Shown: in pieces, positions 41,934 to 51,603 of the stretch
Layout: each line of letters begins with the position of its first letter
Position numbering within the stretch: position 1 is the first letter of the stretch
Source of the DNA: Verrucomicrobiota bacterium
Lineage (GTDB): Bacteria > Verrucomicrobiota > Verrucomicrobiia > Opitutales > Opitutaceae
Assembly: GCA_016222805.1 (NCBI GenBank)
Contig: JACRQG010000011.1
Location: forward strand, 186,001-250,000
Length of the DNA: 64,000 bases
Reading direction: 5' to 3'
Made by a program: the position numbers and the translations under genes
The notes under the pieces: generated by a model
Databases searched by the model: none
What the model was told of the DNA's origin: nothing
What the model saw: the letters and a program-made list of their open reading frames with translations, nothing else

Positions 41934-43748
41934 CTAGGCCTTGCCGCCGGCCGGCTTGGCCCAGGTGTCCTTGAGGGTGAGGGTGCGGTTGAAGACGAGG
42001 CGGGACGGGGAGCTGTCCTTGGCGTCGGCGACAAAGTAGCCGAGGCGCTCAAACTGGAAATAGTCGCGCGAGGTGGCGGCGGCGAGCGAGGACTCGAGCT
42101 TGGCGTTGACGACCTCGAGGGACTGCGGATTGACGTGCTGGCGGAAGTCGTCGGTGGCCGCGGGTTCCGCGACCTTGAAGAGGCGATCGTAGAGGCGTAC
42201 CTCGGCGTCGATGCAGTTCGACGCGCTCACCCAGTGGATGGTGCCCTTGACCTTGCGATCGGCGTTGGGAGCGCCGGAGCGGGTGCTGAGGTCCGCGGTG
42301 CAGCGCAGTTCGGTGATGCGCCCGGAGGCATCCTTGACCACCTCGTCGCATTTGATGATGCAGGCGTATTTCAGCCGCACCTCTCCGCCCGGTTTCAGCC
42401 GGAAGTACTTGGGCGGGGGAACCTCGGCGAAGTCATCGGACTCGATGAAGACCTCGCGGGTCAGCGCGACCGGTCGGGTCGAGGGAGTTTCGTCCTGGGG
42501 GTTGTTGGTCGCTTCGCAGGGGATCACCTCGCCAGCAGAGAGATTGGTCAGGATCACCTTGATTGGCCGGAGCACCGCGAGCCGTCGCGCGGCGAGGGAG
42601 TTGAGTTCCTCCCGGATGGCGTGTTCGAAGAGGGCGATGTCGGTGACGCTCTCGTACTTGGTCACCCCGACGAGGGCGGCGAGGCGGCGGATGGCGCTGG
42701 CGGGAATCCCGCGGCGGCGGGCGCCGGACAGCGTGGGCAGGCGCGGGTCGTCCCATCCCTGCACGTACCCCTCGTCGACCAGCTGCAGCAGCCGGCGTTT
42801 GCTGAACACCATGTAGCTGATGTTGAGCTTGGCGAATTCGTACTGGTGGGGGAGCGATCGGGGCAGGTCGAGACTCTCCAGGATCCAGTCGTAGAGCGGC
42901 CGGTGCTCGGTGAACTCGAGCGTGCAGACGCTGTGGGTGATGCCCTCGAGGTAGTCGCTCAGGCAGTGCGCGAAATCGTAGAGCGGGTAGATGCACCACT
43001 TGTCCCCGGCATGGTGGTGGGCAGTGTGGCGGATACGGTAGAGCAGCGGATCGCGGAGCCAGACATTCGGCGAAGCCATGTCGATCTTGGCGCGCAGGCT
43101 GCGGGCCCCGTTGGGAAACTCCCCGGCCCGCATGCGGGCGAACAGATCGAGGTTCTCGGTGATGCTGCGCTCCCGGAAGGGCGAGTTGCGGCCGGGCTTG
43201 TCGGGCGCCCCACGGTAGGCGTCGGTCTCCTCCGGGGTGAGGTCGCAGACATAGGCCTTGCCGCGCTGGATGAGTTGCACGGCGTACGCGTACAGGGCCT
43301 CGAAGTAGTCGCTGGCGAAGAAGGCCTCCGAGCCCGGCGTGGTGGCGGGAACAGACGCGATGGTGAAGTCAGGCTTGCCACCCGTGGTGACCGTCGCGGG
43401 GCCGGTTCCCTTCATCTTGTAGCCCAGGCACTGGTCCGCCCAGCCGGCGATCAGCCAGTTCACATCCTGCGTGATGGACTCGACGTACTCGATGTCTTCC
43501 TTGGCGGGATTGGTGTCGTCGAACCGCAGGTGGCAGATGCCCTGGTTTTCACGGGCGATGCCGAAGTTCAGGCAGATCGACTTGGCGTGGCCGATATGCA
43601 GGTACCCGTTGGGCTCGGGAGGAAACCGGGTGATGATCCGCTGGTAGCGCCCCTCGGCGACGTCTCGGGCGACGATGTCGCGGACGAAGTCGCTGGGCGC
43701 GGGAGTGGCTGCGCCCGGGACATTGGCGGAGGAATTCTCGGCGGACAT
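41934..43748 (-). CDS. glnS: Glutaminyl-tRNA synthetase
   Basis: The 604-residue class I enzyme has RFPPEPNGYLHIGHAKSICLNFG (HIGH at 51-54), RFDDTNPAKEDIEYVESI, WCIYPLYDFAHC, and the KMSKS-equivalent VFSKRR, followed by a complete anticodon-binding beta-barrel. Compared with E. coli GlnS there is an extra segment of about 32 residues (around positions 108-140, Gly/Thr-rich, containing TVTTGGKPDFTIASVP) just before ASDYFEALYAYA. A true GlnRS means the cell need not rely on GatCAB for Gln-tRNA. Three to four residues near the N-terminus are low complexity. Confidence 0.96.
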   Translation of the reverse strand: MSAENSSANVPGAATPAPSDFVRDIVARDVAEGRYQRIITRFPPEPNGYLHIGHAKSICLNFGIARENQGICHLRFDDTNPAKEDIEYVESITQDVNWLIAGWADQCLGYKMKGTGPATVTTGGKPDFTIASVPATTPGSEAFFASDYFEALYAYAVQLIQRGKAYVCDLTPEETDAYRGAPDKPGRNSPFRERSITENLDLFARMRAGEFPNGARSLRAKIDMASPNVWLRDPLLYRIRHTAHHHAGDKWCIYPLYDFAHCLSDYLEGITHSVCTLEFTEHRPLYDWILESLDLPRSLPHQYEFAKLNISYMVFSKRRLLQLVDEGYVQGWDDPRLPTLSGARRRGIPASAIRRLAALVGVTKYESVTDIALFEHAIREELNSLAARRLAVLRPIKVILTNLSAGEVIPCEATNNPQDETPSTRPVALTREVFIESDDFAEVPPPKYFRLKPGGEVRLKYACIIKCDEVVKDASGRITELRCTADLSTRSGAPNADRKVKGTIHWVSASNCIDAEVRLYDRLFKVAEPAATDDFRQHVNPQSLEVVNAKLESSLAAATSRDYFQFERLGYFVADAKDSSPSRLVFNRTLTLKDTWAKPAGGKA

Positions 43749-43876
43749 AAGCGGTCACGTTGCGGAAGCCCGGCGTGCGAGGCAACGATGCAGTTGCCAG
43801 GTGCATGGCCGCGATGCGTGCGGAGGCTTGACGCGCGGGGGCTGCCGCCGCTTGATCGGGTGCTCAGTCGGTCGTT

Positions 43877-43951
43877 GCGAATGTAGCACAATGGATAGTG
43901 TAGCGGCCTCCGAAGCCGTCGATCCGGGTTCGACTCCCGGCATTCGCACCA
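43877..43951 (+). tRNA. tRNA-Arg(CCG)
   Basis: The acceptor stem GCGAATG/CATTCGC pairs fully, discriminator A is followed by an encoded CCA (43949-43951). The anticodon stem GCGGC/GCCGT encloses the loop CTCCGAA with anticodon CCG at 43910-43912. The T arm is CCGGGTTCGACTCCCGG. Confidence 0.97.
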
Positions 43952-44056
43952 CCGACCGCGGGATGGAAATCCGGAGAAGAAGGGCGGGATACCGGTGACC
44001 GATAAAAAGGGGAAAATTCTGGTTTTCTTTTTCGCCGCGAATTGCACGGTTCGGGC

Positions 44057-44632
44057 ATGAACCCACGCGAACAGGAAGTTCTGGAGATCTTCACCCGCAC
44101 CGGCGCCCTCTTGCGGGGGCATTTCGTCCTCCGATCCGGGTTGCACAGCGGGCACTACTTCCAGTGTGCGCAGGTCTGCCAGAACATGGAGGCGGTGGAG
44201 CGCCTCGCGGCGATGCTGGTGGAGAAGGTGCGCGCCGCCGGGCTGCGTTTTGGCACGGTGCTGGCCCCGGCCATGGGCGGCCTGGTGATTGGGCAGGAGG
44301 TGGCGCGCCAGACCCGGTCGAGGTTCATCTTTGCGGAGAAGGAAAACAACGCCCTGGTCCTGCGCCGCGGCTTTGTGCTCGCGCCGGGTGAAGCGGTGCT
44401 GGTGGTGGAGGATGTCGTCACCCGGGGAGGGCGGGTGCAGGAATGTCTCGCCATCCTCCGGCAGGCCGGAGCGGCTCCCGCCGGCGTGGCGATGCTGGTT
44501 GATCGGAGTTCCGGCGCCACGCGCTTCGATGTTCCGGCGGTCTCCCTGCTGGAAATGAGCTTTCCCACCTTTCCCGCGGACGCGGTGCCGCCGGAACTGG
44601 CGGCGCTGCCGGTGCAGAAGCCCGGGAGTTGA
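44057..44632 (+). CDS. pyrE: Orotate phosphoribosyltransferase
   Basis: The 191-residue enzyme converts orotate and PRPP to OMP in pyrimidine synthesis. It shows GALLRGHFVLRSGLHSGHYFQCA, AVAPAMGG-like LAPAMGGLVIGQEVA, RFIFAEKENN and the PRPP-binding loop VLVVEDVVTRGGR near residues 115-127. The start ATG 44057 gives the conserved N-terminus; a start 15 bases earlier is possible. It is convergent with the coiled-coil gene of the TonB operon. Confidence 0.95.
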   Translation: MNPREQEVLEIFTRTGALLRGHFVLRSGLHSGHYFQCAQVCQNMEAVERLAAMLVEKVRAAGLRFGTVLAPAMGGLVIGQEVARQTRSRFIFAEKENNALVLRRGFVLAPGEAVLVVEDVVTRGGRVQECLAILRQAGAAPAGVAMLVDRSSGATRFDVPAVSLLEMSFPTFPADAVPPELAALPVQKPGS

Positions 44633-44682
44633 CGAAGCGGGTCGAGACTGGGGCCGGTTCGGGGCGTGCCCCTGGTTGCCGG

Positions 44683-44719
44683 GAAAAGAAAAAGCCCCGG
44701 ACCTCGAAAGGTCCGGGGC
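44683..44719 (-). terminator. Intrinsic terminator of the TonB operon
   Basis: GCCCCGGACCT (44694-44704) and AGGTCCGGGGC (44709-44719) form a perfect 11-bp stem with loop CGAA. Read on the minus strand, the stem is followed by TTTTTCTTTTC (44683-44693). It therefore ends the leftward exbB-to-coiled-coil transcript; on the plus strand there is no T-run for pyrE. Confidence 0.92.
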
Positions 44720-44732
44720 GGTAAGAGGAGAA

Positions 44733-45278
44733 TCAGCCCTTCTTGGCGGGGGGAGGTGTGGGGACGGCCGGCGGCCGCACGAGCGAACTGTCGGAGGCAC
44801 GGCGGTGCACCATTTCCGTCATGCGCTGGATTTCCAGTTCGGCGTTGCGGCGGGCGATGCGGGCGAGTTCCACCTGCTTGGCGAGATCGAAGGACTCTCG
44901 ACTGGTCTTGTCCTTCTCCTTGCGCAGGCGATCGAGTTCCTGCTCAAGGGCAGTGACCTGCTTCTGGGCGGCGTCGCCCTTGGCGGTGTATTCGGCCGTG
45001 GCGTCGGCGACCTTCTTGTCGTCGGCTGCCTGCTTGGCCGCCTTCTCGTCCTCCTTCTTTTTCTCTTCAGCGTCACGCTCGTCCTGGCGCTTCTTGGCGT
45101 CTTCGCGCGCCTTGGCTTCGGCGGCTTTCTTCTTGGCTTCAAGGTCAGCCCGCTCCTGGGCGACCTTCTTTTTCGCCTCTTCTTCCTTGCGGTGCGTTTC
45201 CTCGACGTGGCCGAGATAGATAAAGACAAAGCCCACCAGCATGATGCCGGGGAAAATCAGGTACATCCACTTTTTCAT
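44733..45278 (-). CDS. TolA-like single-pass coiled-coil protein (B)
   Basis: From ATG 45278 the 181 residues start MKKWMYLIFPGIMLVGFVFIY, one membrane helix, followed by an uninterrupted Lys/Glu/Ala-rich helix (EAKKKVAQERADLEAKKKAA and onward) to about residue 140 and a Pro-rich end (PPAVPTPPPAKKG). The design resembles the periplasm-spanning helix of TolA, with no C-terminal globular domain. It is the last gene of the TonB operon, 19 bases after its paralogue. An upstream Pro-rich reading of 36 codons is unlikely. I do not recognise a named family. Confidence 0.8.
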   Translation of the reverse strand: MKKWMYLIFPGIMLVGFVFIYLGHVEETHRKEEEAKKKVAQERADLEAKKKAAEAKAREDAKKRQDERDAEEKKKEDEKAAKQAADDKKVADATAEYTAKGDAAQKQVTALEQELDRLRKEKDKTSRESFDLAKQVELARIARRNAELEIQRMTEMVHRRASDSSLVRPPAVPTPPPAKKG

Positions 45279-45297
45279 CGGGTAGGTAAGGGCTGGG

Positions 45298-45852
45298 TTA
45301 TTTCTTGGCGGCGGCGGCAGCGGCAGCGGCGGCGCGGGCGGCATCTTCGGCGGCCTTGTCGGCGGCGGCGATGCGTTCCAGGACACCCTTGAGACTGTTG
45401 GCGTTGCTCTCGGCCTTCTTCACATACTCGCGGAGGAATTTCTCCTCGTCGACGAGCCGCTTGCGTTCGCTCTGAACCTCGGCGAGATCCTTCTTTTCAA
45501 CGTCGATTTCCTTCTGGAGCCGGCGAACCTGTGCCTCGAGCTTCTCGGCGTCACGACCCGCCTTGTCGCGGGCCTGGCGGTCGCGTTCGCGCTTCTCCTT
45601 GGCCTGAGCTTCACGGAGGTCACGGGCCTTCTTATCGGCCTTGCGCTTCTCCTGGAGGACGATCGCTTCCTGCACCGCCTTCTCCCGGTCCTTGGCCTCC
45701 TTGATTAGCTTGGCCTGCTTGGCATCCTGGGCGGCCTTGACCTTCTGTTGCTCGCGCGACTCGAAGTCTTTGTGGGCACCCCAATAGAACCCAAAGAAGA
45801 AGACGACCAGCGCTAAGAGCGGGGCGATGAAATAGACGTAGCTTTTCTTCAT
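45298..45852 (-). CDS. TolA-like single-pass coiled-coil protein (A)
   Basis: From ATG 45852 the 184 residues begin MKKSYVYFIAPLLALVVFFF (membrane helix), then a long charged coiled coil (EQQKVKAAQDAKQAKLIKEA and similar), and end in a run of alanines plus KK. Its N-terminus and layout match protein B downstream, so the two are tandem paralogues. It lies 22 bases after the TPR gene. A periplasm-spanning strut or TonB accessory role is inferred from position only. Confidence 0.8.
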   Translation of the reverse strand: MKKSYVYFIAPLLALVVFFFGFYWGAHKDFESREQQKVKAAQDAKQAKLIKEAKDREKAVQEAIVLQEKRKADKKARDLREAQAKEKRERDRQARDKAGRDAEKLEAQVRRLQKEIDVEKKDLAEVQSERKRLVDEEKFLREYVKKAESNANSLKGVLERIAAADKAAEDAARAAAAAAAAAKK

Positions 45853-45874
45853 GGAAGGTGGAAGTGGTGGTGGA

Positions 45875-47302
45875 TTACTTGGAGCCAGGCGCGGCCTTGG
45901 CGTCGGTCTTGGGTTTTTCGGATTTCTTGGCTTCGCGCTCGGCAATGGCCTCAAGAATCACGCCTTTGAGGCGGGGGAATTGCGGGTCCTTCTTGGCCTC
46001 CTCGAACTTTTCGGCAGCCAAGACGGCGGTGTGAGCTTCGTCGATTTCCCCAAGGTCATAGGCCGTGTAGGCGATCAGATAGTGGGCAGCGAACGGCTTG
46101 GTGCCTTCGAAGTTGCCCTTCTTCACCGCTTCCTTGGCGTGCCGGAGTGCGTCGCGGTTCTTCTCCATCTGAATGTAGAGCTGGGCGATCTGCATCTCGA
46201 TTTCCCCGTTCTTCGGGAAGAGCTTGGCGGCCTCCTGCAGGACCTCGACGGCCCGCACGGTCATGTTGGCCTCCATATAATAACGTCCCAGGACGCGCCA
46301 GTTGTTGGGCTCCGACTCGATGCTGCCGGACTTCATCCCATTATACAGAATCTCGGTACCCTTCGAGAATTGGCCCGCCATCAGGTAGAGGGAGACGAGG
46401 TTCATGCTGTCCTTCGGGGTTTTCATGTGCCCATGGGACTGCGCACGTTCGCACGTGACGATGGCCCGGACCAGGTACTCGCGGCCGAGCGTCGGATCCG
46501 ACTTGCCGACCTTGTCGGACAACTGGAGGTAGGACGCCATCAAGAGCTGCCAGAAATCCTTCTTGGAAGGGTTCTGCTTCAGGAGGAGTTCCAGGACCTC
46601 CGAGGAGCCAGCGAGGTCATTCTGCTGTTGCTGCAGGGTGAGAAGCAGTTGGTAGAAACCTTCCTTCGGCTTGATCGCAGTCATCAAGCCACGCTCGACG
46701 ACATCGCGAGCCTCCTTCAGGAGGGCTTGGTCGACGTTGTTCGGATCCGCGATCGCCTTGTAGTAGAGGATGGAGGAGTAGGCCATCATCGTCTCCGGCA
46801 TCGGTGTCTTCGTCTTCTCGAGGAAGCGCTTGAAGTAGGTGATCGACTTGCCGAAATACTGCTGCTGCTGCGCCGGGACCTTGCTGGTTGAACCTTCCTG
46901 GCCGTACAGCTGGGCCAGCAGGGAGATGGTCTCCAGGGTCTGGCGCTCGGGGAAGTAGTTGTGCTGATCGGAGAGCTGGATGGCGCGTTCCCAAGGGGCG
47001 ATGGCCTTGCTGAACTGGTTGGTCATCGCGTAAATCTTGGCCTTCATGTCCAAGATCAACGCTTCGTCGTAGCTGTTGGGGGCAAACTGCACCGCGTCGA
47101 GCACCGCGAGCATCCCGTTGAAGTTTTGCGCCTCCTGCAGGGGGCGCAACTTCTGGAAAGCCTCGCTGGTTTTTTCGCTGACGCTGTGCGGGACCTTGGA
47201 GCCTCCCTGCGATTGGGCAAAGGCAGTGGAGAGCAGAGCCGCCACGATGGCGGATGCCCGCAGGCCGGTACGCAGGAGGGAAGGGGAAGAAAAGGCGGAC
47301 AC
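45875..47302 (-). CDS. TPR protein of the TonB operon
   Basis: The 475-residue exported protein has a signal peptide (about 1-30, LRASAIVAALLSTAFAQ) and TPR-like helical pairs throughout, for example NFNGMLAVLDAVQFAPNSYDEAL and NGEIEMQIAQLYIQMEKNRDAL. TPR genes directly after tonB are a recurring arrangement in several phyla and are thought to help assemble or tune the energising complex. It starts 6 bases after tonB, so it is in the same operon. The Lys-rich C-terminus (EAKKSEKPKTDAKAAPGSK) is unstructured. Confidence 0.85.
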   Translation of the reverse strand: MSAFSSPSLLRTGLRASAIVAALLSTAFAQSQGGSKVPHSVSEKTSEAFQKLRPLQEAQNFNGMLAVLDAVQFAPNSYDEALILDMKAKIYAMTNQFSKAIAPWERAIQLSDQHNYFPERQTLETISLLAQLYGQEGSTSKVPAQQQQYFGKSITYFKRFLEKTKTPMPETMMAYSSILYYKAIADPNNVDQALLKEARDVVERGLMTAIKPKEGFYQLLLTLQQQQNDLAGSSEVLELLLKQNPSKKDFWQLLMASYLQLSDKVGKSDPTLGREYLVRAIVTCERAQSHGHMKTPKDSMNLVSLYLMAGQFSKGTEILYNGMKSGSIESEPNNWRVLGRYYMEANMTVRAVEVLQEAAKLFPKNGEIEMQIAQLYIQMEKNRDALRHAKEAVKKGNFEGTKPFAAHYLIAYTAYDLGEIDEAHTAVLAAEKFEEAKKDPQFPRLKGVILEAIAEREAKKSEKPKTDAKAAPGSK

Positions 47303-47308
47303 GATGAC

Positions 47309-47962
47309 TTATTCCTCGTTGAGGGTGAAGACGATCGGCACCTGCATGTGAGTCGGCACATCACGCCCACCCTTGCGGCCGGGACGGAACTTCCACTTGC
47401 TTACCGCCTGCACCGCGGCGGCTTCGAACTCACGCTGCGAGGAGCGAAGGGCATAGGCGTTCTGGACGTCGCCGTTGGTATCGACGATGAAGTCGACGAC
47501 CACTTCGCCGGAAATACCGGCGCGACGCATTTCGAACGGATACTGCGGGCGCGCCTGGAACTTTGGCACCGGCGTCTGATCCAGCATGCTGATATCGAAC
47601 ACCTTCATGCCGCGGAACATGTTGGGATCGCGCACCTCGGGAACGATATTCATCGAGGCCGAGATGGTCACGCCTTCCGGCGGCGGCGGCTGAATCTTCT
47701 GCACGAACGAGTCGGGCTGCACCAACTGCGGCACGTCCTGCTGCATCGGCGGCGCGAGATCGAGGGGCTTAACGTCCGCATCCTGTGTCTCGATGATCTC
47801 CGGCTCCTCCTCCATCTTGGGCATCGCGATCAACTCGATCTTGGGCGGCGGTTCCTCGATCTTCCTCACCACCTTCTTCTCGGGAATGAGTTTGTCGCCG
47901 AAGAGCAGGAGAAGATGAAGCCCGGCGGAAAGAATGATTCCAATGATGAGATCGCGAGTCAT
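47309..47962 (-). CDS. tonB: Energy transducer TonB
   Basis: The 217-residue protein has one N-terminal membrane helix (about 6-22, IGIILSAGLHLLLLFG), a short Pro/Glu-rich linker (EEPPPKIELIAMPKMEEEPE) and a C-terminal TonB domain with RPQYPFEMRRAGISGEVVVDF, VDTNGDVQNAYALRSS and AVSKWKFRPGRKGG. It transmits the proton-motive force from ExbB/ExbD to outer-membrane receptors such as the two in this window. The linker is shorter than in E. coli TonB, which may be why long coiled-coil partners follow in the operon (inference). Confidence 0.93.
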   Translation of the reverse strand: MTRDLIIGIILSAGLHLLLLFGDKLIPEKKVVRKIEEPPPKIELIAMPKMEEEPEIIETQDADVKPLDLAPPMQQDVPQLVQPDSFVQKIQPPPPEGVTISASMNIVPEVRDPNMFRGMKVFDISMLDQTPVPKFQARPQYPFEMRRAGISGEVVVDFIVDTNGDVQNAYALRSSQREFEAAAVQAVSKWKFRPGRKGGRDVPTHMQVPIVFTLNEE

Positions 47963-47980
47963 GGGAGCAGCGGGTTGGTC

Positions 47981-48430
47981 TTACTTGCCCGTCGGGCTCG
48001 ACACGGTTTCAACGGAAACCTGTTCGATGCCCGCCTTGCGGATTTCGTCCAGGGCATAAACGGCGGCGCCAAAGCGGGCCTTGTTGTCACCGCGAATCAG
48101 CACGCGGGCGTTGTTCTCACTCTGGCGATAGTCGCGCAGGCGGGGGGCGATTTCGCTGGTGGAGATCAACTCCGGGTTGCCGTTGCCCTGCTTCCAGTAG
48201 TAGGTGCCGTCTTCGGACACCTGCAGGTACACCGTCGTGTCGTTCGGATTCGCCTGCTGCGGGACGTTCTGGGCTACGGGCAACGTGATCGGCAGCGACG
48301 AGATGCGGCTAAGGGAGAGGGTGAAGAGGACGAAGGTGGCGAGCAGGAAGAAGATGACGTCGATGAGAGGGATGATCTCGATACGAGCCTTCTTCTTGCC
48401 TTCGTCCGCTTTGGAGGATGTGCCGGCCAT
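47981..48430 (-). CDS. exbD: ExbD/TolR family protein (second copy)
   Basis: The 149-residue single-pass protein has the ExbD membrane segment IEIIPLIDVIFFLLATFVLFTL, with the proton-path Asp in PLIDVIFF, and a periplasmic domain ending VYALDEIRKAGIEQVSVET. It shares the TM with the ExbD encoded just upstream but differs in the periplasmic part. Two ExbDs suggest a mixed dimer inside the ExbB pentamer. Confidence 0.93.
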   Translation of the reverse strand: MAGTSSKADEGKKKARIEIIPLIDVIFFLLATFVLFTLSLSRISSLPITLPVAQNVPQQANPNDTTVYLQVSEDGTYYWKQGNGNPELISTSEIAPRLRDYRQSENNARVLIRGDNKARFGAAVYALDEIRKAGIEQVSVETVSSPTGK

Positions 48431-48459
48431 GAGAGTAGGTGATTGGAGCGGGGCTGAGG

Positions 48460-48894
48460 TCAGCGTGCGCTGGCCGGGCGAACCTTGGTCTCGATGAAGA
48501 TCTTCTGGAATCCTGACTTGCGGGCCTCGTCGAACACGTAGAGCGCGGCATTGAAGAGCGCGCCTTCGTCGCCGTTGATCAGAATGCGGCCATCCGGTTC
48601 GGCGGCCTTGTAGGTCTTCAGCCGGTCGATGAACTCGGCCAAGCTAATGTAGTCCTTGTTCCAGGCGATCGTGCCGGCATCCGTCACCGAGATGGTGACG
48701 GTTCCGGCGGGGTCGCGGTTCTCACCGGTCTCCGACATCGGCAGGTTGATGCCGGCCACGCCGTTCGACTTGTTCAGCGAGAGGGTGAACAAGACGAAAG
48801 TCGCAAGCAGGAAGAAGATGACGTCGATCAGAGGGATGATCTCGATGCGGGCCTTCTTGCGGGTTCCGCCGCCTGCCAGGCTGGGGCCAGCCAT
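48460..48894 (-). CDS. exbD: ExbD/TolR family protein (first copy)
   Basis: The 144-residue protein has the same membrane segment (IEIIPLIDVIFFLLATFVLFTL with the proton-path Asp) and a periplasmic domain containing DGRILINGDEGALFNAALYVFDEARKSGFQ. It follows exbB by 54 bases and precedes the second ExbD by 29 bases. N-terminal Gly/Lys-rich cytosolic tail of about 12 residues. Confidence 0.93.
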   Translation of the reverse strand: MAGPSLAGGGTRKKARIEIIPLIDVIFFLLATFVLFTLSLNKSNGVAGINLPMSETGENRDPAGTVTISVTDAGTIAWNKDYISLAEFIDRLKTYKAAEPDGRILINGDEGALFNAALYVFDEARKSGFQKIFIETKVRPASAR

Positions 48895-48948
48895 GATGAA
48901 GAGAGGGACTGAGGTGAAAACGCGAAACGAACGGGACGACCGGGAGGA

Positions 48949-49620
48949 TTAGCGCGAGAACGGGGCGTTGGTTTCGCCCTTCTTGAGCAGGATCTCGAGG
49001 GCGTGGGAGGCGTCGGAAACCTCACGTTTCGCATCCTCGGCACGCGCGTTCAGGTAGTTATAGGGAAGCAGTCCGATGACGGCCACGGCGAGACCGCAGG
49101 CGGTGGCGATAAGCGCCTCGGCGACACCACCCGTGATGGTGCCGGCGGCGGCCGCGATGTCGCCGCCACCCAGGGCGCCGAAGGTGCGCATCATGCCGGT
49201 GACGGTGCCGAGGAGGCCGAGGAGGGGGGCCGCGGTGATGCAGGTGTCGAGGGTCGCGAGGCCCTGCTGGAAGCGGGCGAGTTCCTGGCCAGCGGCGCGC
49301 ACGAACGCGTTGGAGAGCGAGTATTCCTTGTTGCTCAGGCTGTAGACCAGAATCTTGGCGATATAGTCCTTGCTCTTGTTGCCGATCGCCAGGGCGCCTT
49401 CGATCTCGCGCCGCTCCAACGCCTCGAGCATCTACTCCACGACTTCGGGCTCACGGCTCGCATTCTCGCGGATGATGAAGATGATCCGCTCCACCACGAC
49501 CGTGATCATGACGAACGACACCAGGGTCATGGGCCACATGATTTCTTTGCCCTTGATGAAAAGATCCATCGGGGTGTCGTCGCCGAGGAGGAACGCGAAG
49601 GGGAGGCTTTGGATGATCAT
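48949..49620 (-). pseudogene. exbB: exbB (MotA/TolQ/ExbB) interrupted by an in-frame TAG
   Basis: ATG 49620 begins MIIQSLPFAFLLGD with the first membrane helix (MWPMTLVSFVMITVVVERIIF) and runs to REPEVVE, then TAG at 49432-49434. In the same frame, ATG 49431 immediately follows and carries MLEALERREIEGALAIG through the two-helix ExbB core (ATLDTCITAAPLLGLLGTVTG, ITGGVAEALIATACGL) to TGA. Together 223 codons, the normal ExbB length. TAG would be one change from AAG (Lys), the residue expected there. Either it is a nonsense mutation or sequence error, or the gene makes two pieces through reinitiation, since the ATG abuts the stop and GGAG precedes it. Other genes here end in TAG, so TAG is not recoded. 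Confidence 0.85.
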
Positions 49621-50077
49621 AAGTAGAGTTTAGGTTGCGATGTTGTCGGAAGCTAAGGGTGGGGAGGGTGGGAAAGAGCGTGGGTAACGCGGCCGCGGTC
49701 AGGGATGGCGGGCCAGCCGACGACCCATGAGCCCCTGCAGGTCTGGCCCGGTGCAGGCGGCGATCCAAGTCGGCGAAGGAAGAGTGTTCAGCATCTGTGC
49801 TGAGTGAATTTTTCTAGTCGGGGACTAACGAAGAACGCGAAATAGGGGTCATCGAAACTTGGCTGTCAACCCACTTTGTCGCGCCAGTTGGGAAAAACGT
49901 TTTGGGCCGGGATTCGGTCGAGGATCGCGTGGGGGATTCCGAGATTCGCAGCCGCGTTTTTCGAGGAGAAAGCTTCGGCCGCAGCGGTCGCTTCGCGGCG
50001 TCGGGGAGAGCGGAGGCGAAGGCGGGTTGCGGCATCATGTTTTCAAGAAGGAGACGATCGCGCAGGCCGTTTCTTAG
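49621..50077. other. Leader and upstream region between exbB and the tRNA cluster
   Basis: I see no gene here. Apart from the candidate promoter at 49839-49869, a weak hairpin TCAGCA/TGCTGA occurs near 49788-49803. The rest, up to tRNA-Gln, has no frame with coding character and no recognised RNA. Confidence 0.5.
49839..49869 (-). promoter_or_regulatory. exbB: Candidate promoter of the exbB-tonB operon
   Basis: On the minus strand TTGACA (49869-49864) is followed at 19 bases by TATTTC (49844-49839), or at 17 bases by CCTATT (49846-49841). The best reading leaves a leader of about 210 nt before exbB. Confidence 0.45.
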
Positions 50078-50151
50078 TGGCTGCCCGACTAGGACTCGAA
50101 CCTAGACAAACGGAGTCAGAATCCGTTGTGCTACCATTACACTATCGGGCA
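50078..50151 (-). tRNA. tRNA-Gln(CTG)
   Basis: On the minus strand the acceptor TGCCCGA/TCGGGCA pairs fully, discriminator G is followed by an encoded CCA. The anticodon stem ACGGA/TCCGT encloses the loop TTCTGAC with anticodon CTG. The T arm is CTAGGTTCGAGTCCTAG. It would be charged by the GlnRS encoded at 41934-43748. Confidence 0.96.
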
Positions 50152-50210
50152 ACGAGACTGATTTCGGCGGTGGTCGCAGGGCGGAATATCCGGCCGGGTT
50201 CCAACGAAAA

Positions 50211-50285
50211 TGGAGCCGGCGATGGGATTCGAACCCGCAACCGCCTGTTTACAAAACAGGTGCTCTACCATTGAGCTACGCCGGC
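50211..50285 (-). tRNA. tRNA-Thr(TGT)
   Basis: On the minus strand the acceptor GCCGGCG/CGCCGGC pairs fully, discriminator T and an encoded CCA follow. The anticodon stem CCTGT/ACAGG encloses the loop TTTGTAA with anticodon TGT. Confidence 0.96.
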
Positions 50286-50330
50286 AGCTGGCGAGCGTCT
50301 GCCAAGCAAATACTGGGAAAAAACACTTGG

Positions 50331-50405
50331 TGGTGGCTCCCCGGGGACTCGAACCCCGAACCTACTGATTAAGAGTCAGCTGCTCTACCATTGAGCTAGG
50401 AAGCC
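50331..50405 (-). tRNA. tRNA-Lys(CTT)
   Basis: On the minus strand the acceptor GGCTTCC/GGGAGCC pairs with one G-T, discriminator A is followed by an encoded CCA. The anticodon stem GCTGA/TCAGT encloses the loop CTCTTAA with anticodon CTT. A second CCA follows the first in the genome. It leads the three-tRNA cluster (Lys-Thr-Gln). Confidence 0.96.
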
Positions 50406-50422
50406 ACGAACCAAGAGGCAAA

Positions 50423-50451
50423 AAAACTCACGAACGCTTCGGCCTTGTCAA
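50423..50451 (-). promoter_or_regulatory. Candidate promoter of the Lys-Thr-Gln tRNA cluster
   Basis: TTGACA on the minus strand (50451-50446), a 17-base spacer, then a weak -10 (AGTTTT, 50428-50423), placed 18 bases before the tRNA-Lys start. The perfect -35 box and position make it likely. Confidence 0.45.
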
Positions 50452-50592
50452 CTGCGATCTCGTCGCGAGTGCGGAGTGAAATCACGCACGCTTCCGGTGC
50501 GGGCGGCAACGACGGTTTCGCGCGAGGCGTGGGCGCACGCAGGCCGCAGCCTCATCCGGCACAGACCGGCATCACCGCGGGATGGTGGAGCT

Positions 50593-51603
50593 TTAGCGTC
50601 CAGGCGATTGCCACGCCGGCACGGCGAGCTCGGTCATCAGGCGCACGCCGGGCGCGGCGCCAAGGAGGCGCGGCACGATGTTGATCAGCGCTGCGACGGT
50701 CGCGTCGTCGCCGGCCACGCCGCCGTTCAGCACGAGGTTAAGATCGGGTCGGCCGCGCACGACGATCGCGTCGTGCGGGAGCGGCGCGTCGAGGTACATC
50801 TGCAGGTCCAGTTTGATACGCGTCTCGCCGCCGACGAGACCGTAGCATTTTTGGTGGATGCCGAGGCTCTGGCCCGGTGCCACGTCGAAGAACTTCGTCA
50901 CCACCCGGCTGGTGGCGACGACGGGTTCGCAGGTCTCGCGGATCTCATCGAGCTTCCAACCCATCGCGTGCGCCACGAGCGCCACCGACTGCTGGAAGCC
51001 GGCGTGTCCCGCCTTCCCGGCGGCGAACTTTGCCCGGAAGTCGTCGGGGTTCTGGCCGCTGCCGATCTTGGCCTGCAGCGGCTGGCGGCGCGTCGAGGCA
51101 TTGACCACGCGCTCGACATAGATCGACTTCACCTCCCGGCTCACCCCGGTGAGACAGATCGGAAGGATATCCATGACGAATCCCGGGTTGACGCCGGTGC
51201 CGGCGATGCGCGCGCCCGTGCGACGGCAAAGGGCGTCGTATTCCGCGGCGAGCTGTGGGGTCTTGAGGGCGGGAAAGATGAGTTCCTCGCAGGTCGACGC
51301 GACACTCACGCCGCGATCGAGGGCGGGTTTCATCTGGCCAAAGGAGGCGGCGGCGCTGGAGCCGGCGGTGTGCAGCACCACGTCGGGCTGGCCGACCGCG
51401 GCGAACAGGGCGTCGAGCGAGGGGAAGACCCGGGCGGAGGCGAGCGCGGGCACGCCGGTCAAATCGGCCAGCGTGCGTCCGGCCTTGGCGGGGTCGATGT
51501 CGACTCCTCCGATCACCTCGAGCCACGACTGCTCGACGGCGAGTTTGAGTGACTCGACTCCGATGGGGCCGAGACCGAACTGGATGACCTGGATCTTTTT
51601 CAT
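50593..51603 (-). CDS. DapB-like NAD(P)-dependent dehydrogenase, diaminopentanoate-dehydrogenase type
   Basis: From ATG 51603 the 336 residues begin MKKIQVIQFGLGPIGVESLK (Rossmann nucleotide-binding motif GLGPIG), with DVVLHTAGSS and GTGVNPGFVMDILPI. This is the dihydrodipicolinate-reductase-like superfamily branch that includes 2,4-diaminopentanoate dehydrogenase; the lysine-pathway DapB catalytic motif is absent. The exact substrate is unknown. It lies 60 bases downstream of the Wza-like lipoprotein gene. Confidence 0.82.
   Translation of the reverse strand: MKKIQVIQFGLGPIGVESLKLAVEQSWLEVIGGVDIDPAKAGRTLADLTGVPALASARVFPSLDALFAAVGQPDVVLHTAGSSAAASFGQMKPALDRGVSVASTCEELIFPALKTPQLAAEYDALCRRTGARIAGTGVNPGFVMDILPICLTGVSREVKSIYVERVVNASTRRQPLQAKIGSGQNPDDFRAKFAAGKAGHAGFQQSVALVAHAMGWKLDEIRETCEPVVATSRVVTKFFDVAPGQSLGIHQKCYGLVGGETRIKLDLQMYLDAPLPHDAIVVRGRPDLNLVLNGGVAGDDATVAALINIVPRLLGAAPGVRLMTELAVPAWQSPGR

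Follow-up and report, generated by a model that had tools for sequence, protein, structure and literature searches.

We analysed a 64,000-nucleotide stretch of DNA (hereafter, the window) from the 7.9-Mb genome of a Verrucomicrobiota bacterium of the family Opitutaceae (GenBank assembly GCA_016222805.1, contig JACRQG010000011.1, positions 186,001 to 250,000). On its minus strand lie seven closely packed genes in the order exbB-exbD-exbD-tonB-TPR-CC1-CC2, of which the last two, CC1 and CC2, encode membrane-anchored helical proteins that we refer to as rods. The exbB gene (window positions 49620-48949) matches Pfam family MotA_ExbB (PF01618, 2.2e-27) on its C-terminal part, after an in-frame TAG; the two exbD copies (48894-48460 and 48430-47981) match PF02472 (5e-24 and 4e-23, respectively), and tonB (47962-47309; 217 residues) matches TonB_C (PF03544, 9.8e-21). 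Pfam thus finds ExbB, ExbD, and a TonB C-terminal domain encoded together, which identifies the locus as a TonB system. The TPR gene (47302-45875) has a GTG start and encodes a 475-residue protein with Pfam TPR matches; its N-terminus, judged by eye, resembles a signal peptide, and the protein is probably secreted. CC1 (45852-45298; 184 residues) is judged to be a rod from its sequence, and CC2 (45278-44733; 181 residues), which carries a conserved C-terminal helix motif, from sequence and a structural model. From exbB through CC2 the intergenic gaps are 54, 29, 18, 6, 22, and 19 bases. An intrinsic terminator of the operon on the same strand (44719-44694), with an 11-pair stem and a T-rich tail, begins 13 bases past CC2. 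This is the gene set, at the place given in a preliminary description of the DNA, including its two paralogues of about 182 residues; that observation is right, and stronger than was stated. Immediately upstream of exbB are three tRNA genes (Lys, Thr, and Gln; 50078-50405, minus strand), and a search of positions 43000-51000 for Rfam RNA elements returned four tRNAs and nothing else.

The gene order is conserved among relatives. A first set of 53 loci with the TPR gene, the window included, was scanned with profiles built from relatives; three of these lie at contig ends, and 50 extend 1.3 kb or more past the TPR gene. CC1 followed by CC2 is present in all 50, and 46 of them also have exbB, exbD, exbD, and tonB, the remaining four beginning inside the operon. 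Loss of the two genes from beside tonB in relatives, on which the preliminary description had staked its proposal, is therefore not what we found. Omitted from these counts are a locus with a TPR fragment (L088) and three operons of a different type containing DUF3450 (L090, L091, and L092), both described below; weak or partial TPR matches (G050:C3, G017, G035:C41, and G063) were also left out of the loci. A second set, which overlaps the first through common genomes, came from a non-exhaustive search with a single CC2 peptide pattern, using one genome per species, and yielded 81 relatives, from which 80 loci were kept. By profile, the complete order is present in 64 of the 80; another 15 are cut by contig ends, and one more (L242) has a diverged tonB. 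L242 had been a candidate for a locus lacking tonB, which was ruled out by the presence of that gene (PF03544, 1.6e-17).

The CC2 profile matches 34 of 387 genomes of the phylum, comprising 33 of the 37 listed Opitutaceae and one genome from another family of the same order (G079); a second genome of that genus (G243) gave no CC2 match, and 333 of the genomes without a match stand outside the listing. Closer examination of 24 genomes, of which several were incomplete, gave no CC2 match in 18, the operon in five, and in one (G463) a weak match that was rejected as a rod locus, given that neither a TPR gene nor CC1 stands beside it; G463 was counted as rod-negative. Record titles in the second set name Opitutaceae, Opitutae, Opitutia, genera of Opitutaceae, or Verrucomicrobia, with one exception, an Acidobacteriaceae bin whose match values are identical to those of an Opitutia contig of similar sample name and which is probably a binning error. 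The operon also occurs in records titled as strains rather than as metagenome bins (Cephaloticoccus primus CAG34, C. capnophilus CV41, and Opitutaceae bacterium EW11). Genomes with several loci retain both rods in each, four loci in G031 (L074, L078, L079, and L082) and two each in G030 and G059. L078 has, in addition, a broken extra CC2 copy ~1.2 kb further on, and in genome G028 a three-rod operon (L077, 6568-8229) encodes two CC1-like proteins and one CC2.

CC1 and CC2 are paralogous (BLASTP, 3e-5; hhalign, 99% and 3.4e-18). Their N-termini mostly consist of a methionine and two basic or polar residues, followed by a membrane helix in which both proteins share a Tyr, Pro, Phe, and Tyr signature. 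An AlphaFold2 model of CC2, built with 37 sequences, is a single helix of 161 residues (residues 3-163; mean predicted local distance difference test [pLDDT] score, 89.5; predicted template modeling score, 0.44), with ten-residue block means of pLDDT above 90 across residues 21-150 and a disordered proline-rich tail after residue 163. About 139 residues of the modeled helix lie past the membrane, and an alpha helix rises 0.15 nm per residue, which would give CC2 a reach of ~20 nm. The earlier suggestion that these proteins might span the periplasm agrees with sequence and model, which predict membrane-anchored helices whose length would take them across much of one.

The rods had also been described as a single N-terminal helix followed by a long coiled coil. 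The membrane helix is there, and so is heptad periodicity in the distal half (residues 96-163), strong in CC1 (matched in 0 of 4,000 permutations) and weak in CC2 (p = 0.083); what does not hold is a coiled coil throughout, as residues 26-95 give no heptad signal by permutation in either rod (p = 0.17 and 0.12). In the window's rods this stretch is 54% (CC1) and 63% (CC2) charged and contains nine and three aliphatic or Phe residues, respectively, and charges four positions apart are opposite rather than like in 15 versus 5 cases in CC1 and 25 versus 5 in CC2. The membrane-proximal half thus looks, from its composition and charge spacing, like a charged single helix. Tandem repeats behind the rods were looked for, and none were found.

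Conservation of CC2 peaks at residues 141-160, around RRNAELEIQR, and the median pairwise identity in the first set is 0.37 for CC1 and 0.39 for CC2. Both rods are under purifying selection: pairwise ratios of nonsynonymous to synonymous substitution rates (dN/dS) range from 0.03 to 0.34 where dS is finite, and these values are rough, since dS in many cases approaches saturation. Membership of a known family was considered and rejected, as Pfam returned nothing over its cut-off for CC1 or CC2 of the window, and across members at an E value of 0.001 no family matched more than 2 of 37 CC2 or 1 of 44 CC1 sequences. A relationship to a solved structure was likewise rejected, the best match having an E value of 0.022 and the matches being short stretches of generic coiled coils. 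We found no description of the rods in the open-licence literature searched.

The length of the rods, taken as the number of residues between the membrane proline and a conserved glutamate, is nearly constant. It is 138 residues in 108 of 113 intact distinct CC2 sequences and 139 in the other five; outside the 113 are the broken second copy in L078 (84 residues) and a sequence cut by a contig end in L188 (132 residues). In CC1 it is 125 residues in 93 of 111 sequences and 126 in 18. The position of the extra residue was established in first-set CC1, the second set holding four further longer sequences: in 13 of the 14 longer CC1 it falls within the membrane helix, and beyond that helix (Tyr23 to Glu136) 68 of 69 first-set CC1 have 114 residues and one has 115. 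The anchors themselves are conserved, not invariant (the CC2 proline is present in 62 of 68), and the alignments were built only from sequences of plausible length. In a set of 50 TonB proteins of rod operons, 119 to 138 residues separate the membrane histidine from the C-terminal domain. For the OmpH coils of Opitutaceae, chosen as a control for coiled proteins at large, 9 of 32 matches to the full Pfam model differ from the usual length by manual count.

Evidence that the rods belong to the same transcript as tonB comes in part from the terminator. The scan of the region says little alone, because it found eight sites where shuffled sequences led us to expect 6.9; the site after CC2 is the strongest of the eight. 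Across relatives, a hairpin with a T-run within 120 bases downstream follows CC2 in 74 of 105 loci, compared with 13 of 101 for CC1, 3 of 97 for the second exbD, 1 of 98 for the TPR gene, and 1 of 99 for tonB. The single clear terminator that had been proposed to close the operon is therefore upheld, both as the strongest site and by the conservation of its position. Synteny, terminator, and purifying selection together support the assignment of the rods to the TonB operon. The hairpin trailing CC1 is commoner than those after tonB or the TPR gene and possibly reflects partial termination ahead of CC2 in relatives.

The preliminary description knew of no described TonB system with this design; for the TPR part there is one. 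Vibrio TonB2/TonB3 (Ttp) systems consist of TtpB (a DUF3450 protein), TtpC, ExbB2, ExbD2, TonB2, and TtpD (a TPR protein), and TonB2 uptake in Vibrio vulnificus requires both TtpB2 (DUF3450) and TtpD2 (TPR) (PMC6957404); a TPR gene after tonB had thus already been described for TonB2. Like the Ttp systems as presented in that source, the operon has an exbB, exbD, and tonB core with a TPR protein encoded after tonB; unlike them, it has no DUF3450 protein and no TtpC but does have two membrane-anchored rods, encoded downstream of the TPR gene. Neither a DUF3450 protein nor a TtpC-like second ExbB was seen in the rod loci with two-sequence profiles, 44 of the 53 loci having at least 2.5 kb before exbB.

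Relatives of the window genome contain operons of the DUF3450 type. Two Opitutaceae genomes (G038 and G044) and one from another family (G087), in none of which the searches made turned up a rod locus, encode a DUF3450 protein, a longer ExbB-like protein (called TtpC-like here for its architecture and position), exbB, exbD (two copies in G044 and G087 by profile), tonB, and a TPR protein. A whole-genome search with the window TPR protein gave one match in each of these three genomes, and in each it was the TPR gene after tonB of the DUF3450-type operon. Profile alignment with those three proteins has a probability of 100 and an E value of 1.1e-45 over 363 columns, at 23% identity. The argument for homology is the combination of end-to-end alignment, single genome match, and common place after tonB, and the window TPR protein is a remote homologue of the TPR proteins of DUF3450-type operons, a comparison made with relatives and not with Vibrio TtpD itself. 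Among the 50 matches listed in a fold search with the TPR model there were helical-repeat and TPR proteins only, with template modeling scores on the query of 0.20 to 0.39. The omitted locus L088 (G000:C29, 4272-5696, minus strand) encodes a sigma-70-like protein (Pfam regions 2 and 4) with a C-terminal stretch ~49% identical to residues 40-146 of the operon TPR protein, perhaps a copied TPR fragment fused to a sigma factor.

DUF3450 scores over its cut-off in 9 of 10 rod-negative versus 7 of 38 rod-positive Opitutaceae genomes (Fisher p = 6e-5, not corrected for shared ancestry). This table holds 48 of 52 genomes, with G087 left out as belonging to another family and G466, G467, and G468 as lying outside the rod search; omitting G463 gives 8 of 9 versus 7 of 38 (p = 1.5e-4), and by genus, again without G463, the counts are 6 of 7 versus 6 of 30 (p = 0.002). 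The counts suggest that the rod and DUF3450 modules tend to replace each other.

Several roles for the rods can be weighed against these data. Rods and TPR protein could together form an envelope spacer or cell-wall organizer that is merely coexpressed with the TonB genes and stands outside the transport complex, for which a rod form and fixed length would be suitable, and rods are indeed missing from some members of the family. We consider this unlikely, in that neither of the two overlapping locus sets shows a broken gene order, genomes with several loci keep both rods in every one, and uptake through the TonB2 system of V. vulnificus depends on the TPR protein TtpD2 (PMC6957404).

More doubtful is that the rods are a second helical force-transducing arm, docking on ExbB-ExbD and acting on an outer-membrane or cell-wall target like a TolA without its end domain. 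The resemblance to TolA of Escherichia coli is real: both have an N-terminal membrane helix and then a long, charged, alanine-rich helix, domain II in TolA (PMC10666116, PMC12204202). The rods also share an operon with the motor, their membrane helix has a conserved signature of its own, their helical body is rich in lysine, glutamate, and alanine, the conserved C-terminal helix motif could bind a target, and with two different ExbDs, each of two arms could have its own. An S...H motif attaches TonB and TolA to the motor (PMC12204202, PMC10666116), however, and this motif, present in the membrane helix of 45 of 50 TonB proteins of rod operons, occurs in 0 of 69 CC1 and 0 of 68 CC2 sequences. 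Each ExbD has the P-[LM]-[IVL]-D motif, which includes the aspartate of its membrane helix, in 49 of 49 cases. Nor does the CC2 model, a helix with a disordered tail, have a C-terminal globular domain, and CC1 is judged likewise from its sequence. In addition to lacking the motif and, in CC2, a counterpart of globular domain III, the rods differ from TolA as described in those two sources in being two paralogous proteins and in occurring together with a TonB, which is present in every locus whose contig extends that far. The TonB of the window is itself ordinary: its linker, supposed earlier to be short, has 114 residues with 19 prolines, and the idea is rejected against the 100 to 300 residues typical of domain II (PMC10666116). 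With no docking motif, no globular end to CC2, and an ordinary TonB linker, the rods do not look like TonB replacements, and the same grounds leave unsupported the original proposal, if it means that they act as transducers and so take over or share in TonB's reach. A further comparison is with the von Willebrand factor A (vWA) force transducers of PVC (Planctomycetes-Verrucomicrobia-Chlamydiae) bacteria, whose gene clusters, like this operon, combine two different ExbD/TolR-like proteins, an ExbB/TolQ-like protein, and a TPR gene (PMC12204202). The operon is unlike the clusters presented there in having no vWA match among its seven proteins and a regular TonB; the main text of that source does not use the word "coiled." A reading of the rods as helical proteins of low complexity whose stabilizing role is minor or dispensable, as their composition-driven lysine/glutamate/alanine sequences with median identity below 0.4 and no known domain might suggest, has little to recommend it against conserved C-terminal motifs, constant length, purifying selection, and a CC2 profile so specific that, of the 34 genomes it matches among 387, 33 belong to a single family.

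As to how the operon is used in the cell, the window genome has 15 TonB_C matches and, with 116 of 193 candidate receptors scored, at least 110 TonB-dependent receptor barrels. In two reduced genomes (G287 and G201; 2.1 and 2.4 Mb, with 30 and 25 barrels, respectively), the best of three TonB_C matches lies in the rod operon, which fits a role as the main TonB system without proving it. The operon may drive receptor transport, a suggestion to which the barrel count lends circumstantial weight and on which, for the window copy, the TAG in exbB has a bearing. This codon (49434-49432, minus strand), with an ATG directly next to it, splits exbB into a 62-residue part containing the first membrane helix and a 160-residue part; at this position, 48 loci of relatives encode lysine in 41 cases and a stop in none. 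The TAG could mark a genuine lesion, an error in the sequence, or a place where translation restarts. TonB and 1 to 25 predicted receptors have been reported in the Verrucomicrobia searched in one study, Opitutaceae included (PMC3422733; the words ExbB, TPR, and TolA do not occur in it), and genes for TonB, ExbB, and ExbD are listed in one isolate (PMC13274419).

On balance we lean towards reading the locus as a TonB2-like energy-transduction operon, from an Opitutaceae lineage, that encodes its own scaffold: a pair of fixed-length rods that replaces the DUF3450/TtpC module. ExbB and the two different ExbDs would form the motor, with TonB pulling on outer-membrane receptors as the transducer. 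CC1 and CC2, each anchored in the inner membrane by one N-terminal helix, would project into the periplasm as rods of near-fixed length, each with a charged, single-helix-like stalk and a distal half that would enter a coiled coil, whose likeliest partners are CC1 and CC2. We regard the TPR protein as corresponding to TtpD, and it would link the rod tips to TonB or to the receptor. The rods would then keep TonB upright or at a set height, transducing no force themselves, and would take the role that the DUF3450/TtpC module has in TonB2-type systems. The direct basis of this scaffold reading is the genes and their operon, their conservation, the rod length, the missing docking motif, and the remote TPR homology, from which we infer the pairing of CC1 with CC2, the contacts, the bracing, and the equivalence to the DUF3450/TtpC module.

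Several observations pull the other way. The contacts among the operon proteins are inferred only, and the heptad signal in the distal half of CC2, where pairing would take place, is weak. Coiled coils inherently resist insertions and deletions, and the OmpH control is a single family. Designed TPR proteins in the PDB score against the TPR profile as well (E value of 8.2e-56, eight stretches), which makes similarity between TPRs, taken alone, a weak sign of shared ancestry, and the homologues compared are those of relatives, with TtpD of Vibrio one step removed. Replacement of one module by the other is not strict, because 7 of 38 rod-positive genomes also have DUF3450, and neither module is indispensable, because a genome without rods and DUF3450 (G034) has 12 receptor barrels. 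Finally, the operon copy in the window may be impaired by the in-frame stop in exbB unless translation restarts, and other TonBs may serve the receptors, given the 15 TonB_C matches in the genome.

A more specific and tentative form of the scaffold reading is a molecular ruler, in which the two paired rods would set the height where TonB and the TPR adaptor meet the receptors. They would be an unrelated replacement of DUF3450/TtpC and a rigid guide beside the flexible TonB. The rod system should be testable, because strain-titled records (Cephaloticoccus and Opitutaceae bacterium EW11) carry the operon. For the question of how TonB gets across the periplasm and exerts force, the rod operon offers a natural case in which dedicated proteins may set its reach. 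Comparison with it may also explain the role of the poorly understood TonB2 accessory proteins DUF3450, TtpC, and TtpD.

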